From NCBI RefSeq assembly GCF_018417535.1, contig NZ_CP070977.1:3844001-3908000 (forward strand): a DNA stretch of 64,000 nt. Direction: 5' to 3'. Positions within the stretch are counted from its first letter, which is position 1. Every line of letters starts with the position of its first letter. This stretch comes from Burkholderia pyrrocinia (GTDB lineage Bacteria; Pseudomonadota; Gammaproteobacteria; Burkholderiales; Burkholderiaceae). The notes beneath the pieces were generated by a model, which worked only from the letters and a program-made list of their open reading frames with translations, had not been told where the DNA came from and did no database searches. The position numbers and the translations under genes are program-made. Shown here piece after piece: positions 58,280 through 61,249 of this stretch.

Positions 58280-58735
58280 TCACGCGGCCGGCAGCGTCTT
58301 GCCGAACGAGATGCGCTCCTCGACGCGATAGCCGAGTGCCGCATAGAAGCGGCACGCGTCGTCGTTGCCGGGCAGCACCTGCAGGTTGATCTTCAGGCAG
58401 CCGCGCGCGGCGAGCGCGCTTTCCGCGTGCGCGATCAGCGCGCGGCCGACGCCGAGCCGCCGCGCGTCGTTCGCGACGCCGAACGAGTAGAGCCAGCCGC
58501 GATGTCCGTCGAAACCCGCCATCAGCGTGCCGACGACGCGCGCGCCGCTGGTCGCGACGAAGAACAGTTCCGGCTGCGTCGCGAGCTTCAGCTCGATCGA
58601 TCGCAGCGGATCGCGGTGCAGCGGCGCATCGGCTTCTTCGTATTGCGGGAACGCGTCGCGCCATACCGCGAGTACGGCATCGGTGTCGGCGCGTTCGAAC
58701 GGGCGGATAGCGACAGCATCGGCGGCGGCATCCAT
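58280..58735 (-). CDS. GNAT-family N-acetyltransferase
   Basis: A 151-residue acetyltransferase. The acetyl-CoA site is NDARRLGVGRALIAHAE (motif A, R-x-x-G-V-G-R-A), preceded by GWLYSFGVAND and followed by KINLQVLPGNDDACRFYAAL (motif B), an arrangement like YpeA-type proteins. The substrate is unknown. Located 13 bases after the argD-like gene on the same strand, so likely cotranscribed with it. Confidence 0.88.
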   Translation of the reverse strand: MDAAADAVAIRPFERADTDAVLAVWRDAFPQYEEADAPLHRDPLRSIELKLATQPELFFVATSGARVVGTLMAGFDGHRGWLYSFGVANDARRLGVGRALIAHAESALAARGCLKINLQVLPGNDDACRFYAALGYRVEERISFGKTLPAA

Positions 58736-58748
58736 CGCGGCGGTCTCC

Positions 58749-59933
58749 TTAGAGCGTATCGAGGATCGACCGCAGCATCGCCATCATCTGGTCGATCTCT
58801 TCGGTCGTCACGTTCAGCGCGGGCATGAAGCGCAGCAGGTTCGGCCGCGCGGCGTTCAGCAGCAGGCCGTCGGGCTGCATGTCGCGTGCCTTCTCGACGA
58901 TCTGCGGGCCGATGTCCTTGCCGAGCAGCAGCGCGCGCAGCAGGCCTTCGCCGCGTTCGCCTTCGAAGCCGCGCTCTTCCGACAGCTCGAGCAGCTTGCG
59001 CTTCAGGTATTCGCCGCGTGCGCGCACGCCTTCGAGGAAGCCGGGCGCGACGAGCTGCGAGATCACCGAATAGCCGGCCGCCGTCATCAGCGGGTTGCCG
59101 TTGTACGTGCCGCCCTGGTCGCCGGCCTCGAACACCGCGACATCGGCCTTCGACAGCAGCGCCGCGAGCGGTACGCCGCTGCCGATGCCCTTGCCGAGCG
59201 TCATGATGTCCGGCTCGATGTCGGCGAGCTCGTACGCGAACAGCGTACCTGCACGGCCGCAGCCGCTCTGCACTTCGTCGACGATCAGCAGCAGGTTGTG
59301 CTGCTTCGTCAGTGCGCGCAGCTCGCGCATGAATTCGCGCGTCGCCGGAATCACGCCGCCTTCACCCTGGATCGGTTCGAGCATCACGGCGACGGTCTTG
59401 TCGGTGATCAGTTTCTCGACCGAGTTGATGTTGTTCAGCTCGGCCTTCGGGAAGCCCGGCACCTGCGGCGCGTAGATCGTGTCCCAGCCCGGCTTGCCGC
59501 TGGCCGACATCGTCGCGAGCGTGCGGCCGTGGAAGCTGTGGTCGAACGTGATGATCTCGTACGCGCCGTTGCGGAACTTGCGGCCCCACTTGCGCGCGAG
59601 CTTGATCGCACCTTCGTTCGCTTCGGCGCCGCTGTTCGTGAAGAACACCTTGTCGAACACGCTGTGCTGCGTGAGCAGGCCCGCGAGCTTCGCCATCGGC
59701 TCGTTGTAGAACGCCGGCGACGGGTTCAGCAGCGTTTCCGCCTGCTGCTTCAGCGCTTCGACGACACCGTCGTTGCAGTGGCCGAGGCTGTTGACGGCCC
59801 AGCCCTGGATGAAGTCCAGATAGCGCTTGCCCGTGTGATCGTAGAGCCACGAACCCTTGCCGTGCGTAAACACGATGTCGGGGCGGTTCGTGATGTACAT
59901 CAGCGAGTCGATCGGAAAATCGTTCAAGGGCAT
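58749..59933 (-). CDS. argD: Acetylornithine aminotransferase family protein
   Basis: A 394-residue class III PLP aminotransferase, most like ArgD, which makes N-acetylornithine in arginine synthesis. Motifs: [28 protein letters not shown] (cofactor phosphate), [35 protein letters not shown] (PLP Asp) and the Schiff-base Lys in [17 protein letters not shown]. The start ATG ([19 protein letters not shown]) has GGAG 10 bases upstream. An intrinsic terminator lies in its own 5' leader, only about 40 bases ahead of the start. Astc/GabT-type relatives are possible; argD is preferred from the overall pattern. Confidence 0.85.
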
Positions 59934-59974
59934 GGCAGCAGACTCCAGCGGACGTTGAAAGGGAAACGGGCAAT

Positions 59975-59999
59975 AAAAAAGCCACGGAAGGCCGTGGCT
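59975..59999 (-). terminator. Intrinsic terminator inside the argD-like leader (attenuator candidate)
   Basis: On the minus strand AGCCACGG-CCTT-CCGTGGCT followed by T5. It sits 42 bases before the argD-like ATG, with no room for a separate promoter behind it, so transcripts reaching the gene must read through it. Confidence 0.75.
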
Positions 60000-60019
60000 G
60001 GTGGGTTCGAACAGCTTGT

Positions 60020-60048
60020 GCGTAACCGGTGAAGCAGTGGGGTTACGC
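60020..60048 (-). promoter_or_regulatory. Hairpin over the leader-ORF stop codon
   Basis: GCGTAACC (60048-60041) pairs with GGTTACGC (60027-60020), a perfect 8-bp stem with a 13-base loop. The TAA of the leader ORF (60045-60043) lies inside it, 21 bases before the terminator stem, as expected for a ribosome-sensitive structure. Confidence 0.55.
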
Positions 60049-60126
60049 GCGAGTCCGTGACGAGCCTGCGGCATCCGGGAGGAGCGGCGAGCGGCGACGT
60101 CGGAGAGCGGACAGGAAGCGGTTCAT
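60043..60126 (-). CDS. Candidate Arg-rich leader peptide upstream of argD-like gene
   Basis: A 27-codon [19 protein letters not shown] then [11 protein letters not shown], with four Arg codons in a row (CGA CGT CGC CGC) and seven Arg overall. It begins 7 bases after a promoter's -10 box and ends inside a hairpin, with a terminator 44 bases on. The layout is that of amino-acid attenuator leaders. Caution: Arg-rich chance ORFs are frequent in GC-rich DNA, no Shine-Dalgarno is possible so close to the promoter, and no antiterminator pairing was found. Confidence 0.4.
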
Positions 60127-60133
60127 GTGCGCA

Positions 60134-60163
60134 AGCATAAGGCATCCCGCGCCCCACTGTAAA
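60134..60163 (-). promoter_or_regulatory. Sigma70-type promoter of the argD-like gene
   Basis: On the minus strand TTTACA (60163-60158) and TATGCT (60139-60134), 18 apart. The predicted start is at or near the ATG of the leader ORF, about 195 bases before the argD-like gene. Confidence 0.55.
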
Positions 60164-60217
60164 CCGCCGCGATGCCACGGATGTGACATCGCGGCGCGGG
60201 ACGCGGGCGCGTGGGTC

Positions 60218-61249
60218 TCAGACCGGATGCGCGAGATCGGCGGCGCTCGTGAACGAGTCCGCGTAGAACTCGTCGGCCGGCAGTGCGTGGTGCAGCGTGA
60301 AGTCGCGCTGCGCGGATTCGACCATCACCGGCGCGCCGCACGCGTACACCTGATGACCCGACAGGTCGGGCAGGTCCTCGATCACCGCGCGATGGACGAA
60401 GCCCGTGCGGCCCGTCCACTGGTCGGCGTCGTCGGGCTCGGAGAGCACCGGCACGTACTTGAAGTTCGGGATCTCGCGCGCCCACTGCTCGGCGAGCTCG
60501 CCGAGGTAGATGTCCTTCTTGCGGCGTGCGCCCCAGTAGAGCGTCATCGGGCGCGTGATGCCCCGGTGCTTCACGTGCTCGATGATCGCCTTGATCGGCG
60601 CGAAGCCCGTGCCCGATGCAAGCAGTACGATCGGCTTGTCGGAATCCTCGCGCAGGAAGAACGTGCCGAGCGGGCCTTCGAAGCGCAGGATGTCGCGCTC
60701 CTTCATCGCGCCGAACACGTGATCGGTGAACTTGCCGCCCGGCATGTGGCGGATGTGCAGCTCGACCGGGCCTTCCTCGTGCGGCGCGTTCGCCATCGAG
60801 TAGCTGCGGCGCGAGCCGTCCTTCAGGATGAACTCGACGTACTGGCCCGCGAGGTATTGCAGTCGTTCGTTGGCGGGGAGCTGCAGCTTCACGACCATCA
60901 CGTCGTCGGCCTTGCGCTCGAGCGCGGCGATCCGGCACGGCAGCTTCTTGACCTGCACGCCGTCGACGCCGGCGATTTCGCGCACGTCGATCTCGAGATC
61001 GCACTGCGCCTTCGAGCAGCACAGCAGCGCGAGGCCGCGCGTGCGCTCATCATTGGACAGTGCCGACGCGGCATGCGGGCCCTGCTCGATCTGGCCCGAC
61101 ACGATCTGGCCCTTGCAGGAGCCGCACGCGCCGTTCTTGCAGCCGTACGGCAGATGGACGTTCTGGCGCAGCGCGGCTGCCAGCACGGTTTCGTCCGACT
61201 CGACCTGGAATTGCCGGCCGCTTTGCTTGAGAGTGACGTTGAATGCCAT
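60218..61249 (-). CDS. 2Fe-2S/FAD oxidoreductase, CDP-6-deoxyglucoseen reductase type
   Basis: A 343-residue electron-transfer protein. The N-terminal plant-type ferredoxin domain has CKNGACGSCKGQIV and a distal CCSKAQC (2Fe-2S). FAD is bound by SRRSYSMANAPHEEG and the NAD(P)H domain by VLLASGTGFAPIKAIIEH and HQVYACGAPVMVES. This is the layout of AscD-like reductases, often annotated as CDP-6-deoxy-delta-3,4-glucoseen reductase in betaproteobacteria. No 3,6-dideoxysugar genes are near, so its partner is more likely another oxygenase or a general reductase role. It is divergent from the SDR gene. Confidence 0.88.
   Translation of the reverse strand: MAFNVTLKQSGRQFQVESDETVLAAALRQNVHLPYGCKNGACGSCKGQIVSGQIEQGPHAASALSNDERTRGLALLCCSKAQCDLEIDVREIAGVDGVQVKKLPCRIAALERKADDVMVVKLQLPANERLQYLAGQYVEFILKDGSRRSYSMANAPHEEGPVELHIRHMPGGKFTDHVFGAMKERDILRFEGPLGTFFLREDSDKPIVLLASGTGFAPIKAIIEHVKHRGITRPMTLYWGARRKKDIYLGELAEQWAREIPNFKYVPVLSEPDDADQWTGRTGFVHRAVIEDLPDLSGHQVYACGAPVMVESAQRDFTLHHALPADEFYADSFTSAADLAHPV

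Follow-up and report, generated by a model that had tools for sequence, protein, structure and literature searches.

A predicted leaderless, arginine-specific transcription attenuator ahead of argD in Burkholderia pyrrocinia and related Burkholderiaceae

The RNA leader of argD in Burkholderia pyrrocinia most probably controls the gene by ribosome-mediated transcription attenuation of the trp/his type, with a leaderless ORF and a specificity for arginine, a reading to which we assign a probability of roughly 85% on the basis of comparative sequence analysis and RNA folding. We studied a 64-kb stretch of the chromosome, referred to below as the window. The first-pass annotation of this DNA had proposed an attenuator-like leader ahead of an argD-type gene, and the proposal is now supported by conservation and by a predicted antiterminator. 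The leader belongs to Rfam family RF02884 (BcKCsr7), which it matches at positions 60140-59975 with 168.6 bits (E 1.9e-36; gathering score, 59 bits), and it is the sole Rfam match at gathering score in the window. A second RF02884 match in the same genome (L002, 30.4 bits, under the cut-off) is a terminator behind the apparent end of another gene; we consider it a chance match and removed it before all counts.

All elements of the locus lie on the minus strand. The sigma70-like promoter consists of TTTACA (-35, 60158..60163) and TATGCT (-10, 60134..60139) with an 18-nt spacer, and the leader ATG follows 7 nt downstream of the -10 element, at 60126. The ORF that begins there has 27 codons and a stop (60043..60126), carries the four tandem Arg codons CGA CGT CGC CGC (60091..60102), and ends in a TAA (60045-60043) which lies inside the 8-bp hairpin GCGTAACC/GGTTACGC (60020..60048; stems 60048-60041 with 60027-60020). 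The intrinsic terminator AGCCACGG/CCGTGGCT spans 59999-59980. Promoter, ORF, hairpin and terminator had all been recognized at first reading, with two details now revised: the T run is T6, extending to 59975, rather than T5, and the gap between terminator and argD, short as described, contains 41 bases rather than 42. Within this gap is the Shine-Dalgarno-like CTGGAG (59943..59948), followed by the argD start codon at 59933. The gene itself (58749..59933), earlier called acetylornithine aminotransferase-like, encodes a 394-aa acetylornithine transaminase that scores 815.7 bits against the NCBIfam equivalog model NF002985 (cut-off 568). It is followed, 13 bases on and in the same orientation, by a GNAT acetyltransferase gene (58280-58735; NF002959 over cut-off) that probably shares its transcript. 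The upstream neighbour is a ferredoxin/FAD reductase-like gene (60218..61249), for which all 25 NCBIfam matches shown score under their cut-offs. A copy of CCGTGGC, complementary to the 5′ arm of the terminator, is present at 60174-60180; as it is located upstream of the -35 element it would be carried only by readthrough RNA from the reductase gene, and bases at this site differ in the leaders printed from other genera.

RF02884 matches were obtained in 65/65 genomes of the genus, 183/299 of the family and 9/25 genera, with scores over the cut-off in 134/299 family genomes, and the distribution of the leader extends past Burkholderia to other genera, Paraburkholderia xenovorans LB400 (L233) being one example. 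We fetched 140 Burkholderiaceae loci: 46 drawn from the 65 of the genus, and 94 drawn from the 142 others that match. By tblastn, argD is downstream (incomplete in L053 and L124) and the reductase gene upstream in all 140; because this synteny is conserved, the presence of argD downstream is by itself no proof of control in cis. An ATG is found 6–7 nt past the -10 element in 138/140 leaders, which predicts a leaderless ORF. The two without an ORF by our rule are L116, in which bases at the start are masked, and L124, a decayed copy. Among the 138, the -10 element is TAT[TGC]CT in 136 and TAAGCT in 2, a -35 element of the form TT[TG]AC lies 17–18 nt ahead of it in 126, and a pattern search detects an intrinsic terminator between ORF and argD in all except L118 and L120 (136/138). 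Damaged leaders occur in some genomes of ~3.8–4.2 Mb, possibly those of symbionts (L116, L124 and L166), where an Arg codon is changed, the frame is lost, or the ATG and Arg run are gone; the one that lacks ATG and Arg run sits beside an argD with a stop. Such damage would be expected if control by arginine had become dispensable there.

These patterns bear on the simplest rival explanation, in which the hairpin and T run are a plain intrinsic terminator of the reductase gene and argD has a promoter further down. In its favour, the reductase gene is upstream in 140/140 loci and has a terminator behind it, but the promoter elements sit between the two, a short transcript has been reported at the locus in B. 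cenocepacia (PMC10987360), and a plain terminator requires no Arg codons. We regard it as extremely improbable.

Comparison of the leaders points to selection on the Arg run of the ORF. The run has four codons in 131/138 leaders, three in 6 and two in 1, within peptides of 14 to 32 codons. Mapped onto a tree of argD, changes in the four Arg codons were 15 synonymous and 3 nonsynonymous, compared with 47 and 94 for codons 2–8 of the same ORFs and 31 and 43 for codons 13–16 (Fisher p 6e-5 and 0.003, respectively, for counts of changes on a tree, which are not fully independent). This tree holds 134 of the 138 leaders and omits four with one Arg codon deleted (L067, L123, L136 and L137); scoring these as three losses gives 15 to 6, with p 0.001 against codons 2–8. 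Across 39 sequences, indels before or inside the Arg run alter the length by multiples of three. It had been feared that GC-rich DNA would yield Arg-rich ORFs by chance, a concern that the synonymous bias and the frame-keeping lengths together remove. Likewise, the leaderless start had been listed as a weak point, yet the spacing that predicts it is itself conserved. In the conservation check that had been set beforehand, the Arg run, start codon and leaderless spacing were retained from genus to genus, in contrast to the drifting remainder of the peptide. Codon choice within the run is also restricted. The first codon is CGA in 89/89 distinct RRRR ORFs, although CGA makes up 2.4% of the Arg codons of argD, and CGG, AGA and AGG account for 0/356 codons of RRRR runs versus about 12% in the comparison. 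CGA, CGU and CGC are all decoded by the inosine-bearing tRNA-Arg. Since the bases of the Arg codons also form a hairpin, constancy of the third base may partly reflect pairing.

The RNA is already catalogued. A review table lists RIT34, equated there with nc5U30 and Bc_KC_sr7, as spanning 147 nt in B. cenocepacia J2315 and as expressed in biofilms (PMC10987360). The nc5U names go back to Sass et al. 2017, which describes 82 short 5′UTR transcripts arising from processing or attenuation (PMC5688073). Counting from the A of the start codon through the final stem base of the terminator gives 147 nt in B. cenocepacia NCTC13227 (L019) and 146 in the window; the match at 147 nt fits a leaderless start, although a J2315 figure is here set against an NCTC13227 sequence with the convention for the 3′ end assumed. 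In the window the attenuated RNA, T run included, is predicted to cover 59975..60126 (152 nt), its 5′ end being that A. The excerpts of PMC10987360 that deal with RIT34/nc5U30 mention neither a leader ORF nor arginine control, and the open-access literature that we searched held no description of the leader as arginine-responsive. The earlier remark that no described arginine leader-peptide attenuator was known in Burkholderia stands within that literature, with the correction that the RNA itself was on record as RF02884/nc5U30.

Rfam files RF02884 as 'Gene; sRNA', and the transcript might accordingly be a trans-acting small RNA whose targets exclude argD, the ORF being incidental. The reported short transcript, which goes down during Caenorhabditis elegans infection and up with organic peroxide (PMC10987360), would agree with this, and these changes are not obviously explained by arginine; moreover, attenuator RNAs can work in trans, as does rnTrpL of Sinorhizobium meliloti (PMC7298713). 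A small RNA of this type, however, has no need of Arg codons with a synonymous bias, of an ATG fixed 6–7 nt past the -10 element, or of argD downstream in 140/140 loci, and we judge this explanation unlikely. An additional role in trans may exist alongside attenuation.

For attenuation by a translating ribosome, an alternative to the terminator has to be available, and the first-pass annotation had found no such pairing. Folding now identifies one: GCCGCaGGCU in the spacer with AGCCaCGGC of the terminator 5′ arm. In the window the predicted segments are as follows. Segment 1, the 5′ strand of a hairpin that includes the Arg codons (GACG..GCC), lies at 60093..60101 and is predicted to pair with segment 2 (GGC.CGTC, 60059..60066), which is indicated by both folding and alignment. 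The antiterminator strand GCCGCAGGCT (60063..60072), assigned by folding, overlaps segment 2. Segment 3 is the terminator 5′ arm AGCCACGG (59992..59999), in which GCCACGG is invariant in the alignment of 39 leaders, and segment 4, seen in the sequence and the alignment, is the 3′ arm CCGTGGCT with the T6 run (59975..59987). In most of the 18 leaders printed, free folding pairs the Arg codons with GGCu.CGUC as a hairpin. To model a ribosome stalled on the second Arg codon, we removed all RNA up to its front edge; GCCGCnGGCU is then predicted to bind the 5′ arm of the terminator, AGCCACGGC, a result that holds for 131/131 distinct leaders. Part of the same strand, GCCGCaGGCU, is the alternative complement of the Arg codons. 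The stop-codon hairpin GCGTAACC/GGTTACGC would be nested within the antiterminator when this forms.

We quantified the switch in 39 non-redundant leaders (under 90% identity) as sequestration, the mean pairing of seven 5′-arm bases in RNA ending just past the arm. With an Arg-stalled ribosome, sequestration averaged 0.94, and its minimum was 0.85 (39/39 leaders), compared with means of 0.42 without a ribosome and 0.44 with a ribosome at the stop codon. Single leaders reach 0.80–0.85 without a ribosome. Dinucleotide-shuffled spacers gave a mean of 0.63, and 74/1560 shuffles scored as high as the real spacer. Moving the front edge along the leader, sequestration was 0.43 at -30 from the first Arg codon, rose to 0.81 at +12, stayed at 0.92–0.94 over +15 to +27, and was 0.88 at +30 and 0.47 at +36; means of 0.88–0.94 were confined to +15 to +30, and other offsets scanned gave 0.36–0.81. 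Assuming ~15 nt between the A-site codon and the ribosome front edge, Arg codons 1–4 correspond to +15 to +24, so that the peak covers the positions where a ribosome starved of Arg-tRNA would be expected.

Two features of the switch qualify this picture. In full-length folds with the stalled ribosome, the terminator keeps a probability of at least 0.7 in 31/39 leaders (0.87 in the window); as the completed terminator is usually the more stable structure, the antiterminator must act kinetically, with timing deciding the outcome. The hoped-for covarying stems did not appear either: across 39 sequences the Arg-codon hairpin has 93.2% of cells paired and the antiterminator 85.5%, each with 0 two-sided changes. 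Because the strands are nearly invariant, this absence says nothing either way, and the pairings rest on conservation, position and folding energies. RNAalifold on the 39-leader alignment returned 14 pairs, one of which, in the terminator, has a two-sided change. Two other candidates were set aside. On paper, GUCACGGA could pair with the 3′ arm of the terminator; in the folds it is the 5′ arm that is captured. A CUCC-type anti-Shine-Dalgarno motif past the Arg run was, by eye, unconserved in the other genera printed; CU-rich double-hairpin sRNAs are described in PMC5688073.

Based on these results, we propose the following sequence of events. Transcription would begin at the first base of the leader ATG, and a ribosome would initiate directly on this 5′ end, no Shine-Dalgarno being involved. 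When charged tRNA-Arg runs low, the ribosome would be held at the Arg codons, where it would occupy segment 1. The antiterminator strand, thereby released, would pair with the terminator 5′ arm ahead of synthesis of the 3′ arm, and the polymerase would continue into argD. If Arg-tRNA is plentiful, the ribosome would pass the Arg codons, the terminator would form, and the short RNA (BcKCsr7/nc5U30) would be the sole product. How the antiterminator is disarmed would depend on the length of the ORF. The stop codon is 3 to 9 nt ahead of the antiterminator strand in 63/131 leaders, and in these short-ORF relatives a ribosome at the stop would mask the strand. It lies 27 to 29 nt past the start of the strand in 53/131 leaders, the window included; in the 27-codon form of the window the ribosome would traverse the strand, leaving it masked or refolded onto the Arg codons, and for this class the logic of release is less direct.

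The same ORF and switch would also be predicted if RRRR were a ribosome-arrest or slow-translation sensor of a signal other than tRNA-Arg, such as polyamines, antibiotics or general translation stress, and a polybasic run with a slow CGA codon could conceivably pause ribosomes unaided. Unlike those of an arrest peptide, however, the flanking residues drift, as the 94 nonsynonymous changes in codons 2–8 attest; the controlled gene, argD, makes an arginine precursor; and the repressor ArgR (PF01316) was found in 0/80 family genomes searched, our own genome also giving no match, in a search that was positive for 9/14 controls. A sensor of another signal therefore appears very unlikely, and the arginine attenuator would provide feedback control in a family without a detected ArgR. 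By eye, no Arg-run leader was seen upstream of argG in this genome or upstream of the better of its two argC matches (both under cut-off).

We also looked beyond the RF02884 matches. From 28 chosen genomes, mostly with a weak or absent match, 25 further Burkholderiaceae argD orthologues were obtained; 17/25 have a leaderless Arg-rich ORF ahead of argD and 8/25 do not, the latter including L144 (argD abuts the reductase gene), L166 (argD match with a stop) and L142 (contig end upstream). Other Burkholderiales families contributed 13 orthologues. One (L175) passes the strict rule; in 5 more an Arg-rich ORF is joined by a terminator detected with a crude finder, with the -10 element outside the rule; the remaining 7 do not show this layout. 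The finder overlooked the terminators of six loci (L146-L149, L151 and L153); L147, the one of these printed, has a terminator-like hairpin and T run. Paralogues, at most 43% identical, pass the strict rule in 0/18 cases, and 3/18 have a short Arg-rich ORF that lacks both -10 element and terminator. Dependence on ribosome position was weaker in several of 14 chosen leaders from other genera and families. The terminator arm of L182 and L187 differs in sequence and, by eye, the predicted antiterminator matches it, which hints that arm and antiterminator have changed together; in both leaders, sequestration of the arm is predicted already when the front edge is 27 nt ahead of the Arg codons. L180, L182 and L183, from other Burkholderiales families, have their ATG 6–7 nt past CACAAT, a different type of -10 element, and their ORFs again look leaderless, although the Arg run of L183 is just two codons long.

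Taken as one joint statement, we think it rather likely that BcKCsr7 represents the RNA left by termination at a leaderless arginine attenuator which hears one tRNA-Arg isoacceptor through its invariant CGA-first run, replaces the missing ArgR in Burkholderiaceae, and has diverged, with re-matched terminator and antiterminator, in other Burkholderiales families. If true, this would explain how argD is controlled in a large family without a detected ArgR-type repressor, assign a role to what is listed as an sRNA without known function, and extend the range of classical attenuation to arginine. With its conserved leaderless start, the leader would also offer a natural system in which to study the timing of leaderless initiation relative to transcription.

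In the attenuators of the trp/his operons, a leader ORF contains consecutive codons for the amino acid being made, two sets of base pairs exclude each other, and an intrinsic terminator stands before a biosynthetic gene. The argD leader has the leader ORF, predicted exclusive pairings and intrinsic terminator in common with them, and differs in its predicted arginine specificity and leaderless ORF and in argD as its target. Of the features that define the class, a short ORF with an Arg run (RRRR in 131/138) ahead of a gene of the arginine pathway is present in the sequence, and folding predicts an antiterminator incompatible with the terminator and released when a ribosome sits on the Arg codons. 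The trp case is described in PMC7298713, which also supplies a leaderless precedent: the S. meliloti trpL transcript starts at the ATG of the leader ORF, and its terminated RNA, rnTrpL, acts as an sRNA. That system uses tryptophan codons and belongs to the alphaproteobacteria, and we claim no homology with it. Arginine is sensed by leader ORFs elsewhere. In Salmonella, orf34 of the speF leader does so through two consecutive Arg codons ahead of an ornithine decarboxylase gene, using Rho and RNase G where the argD leader has an intrinsic terminator (PMC6386406). In Staphylococcus aureus, the Arg-codon leader ORF rbfL senses arginine restriction and, in contrast to the argD leader, blocks translation of a biofilm regulator (PMC13009471). 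The carA gene of Pseudomonas aeruginosa is also said to make a leader peptide (PMC4997734). RF02884 (BcKCsr7/nc5U30/RIT34) is the same RNA as the argD leader, although filed as an sRNA. The best reading is that arginine represents a new specificity within a known class of attenuators.
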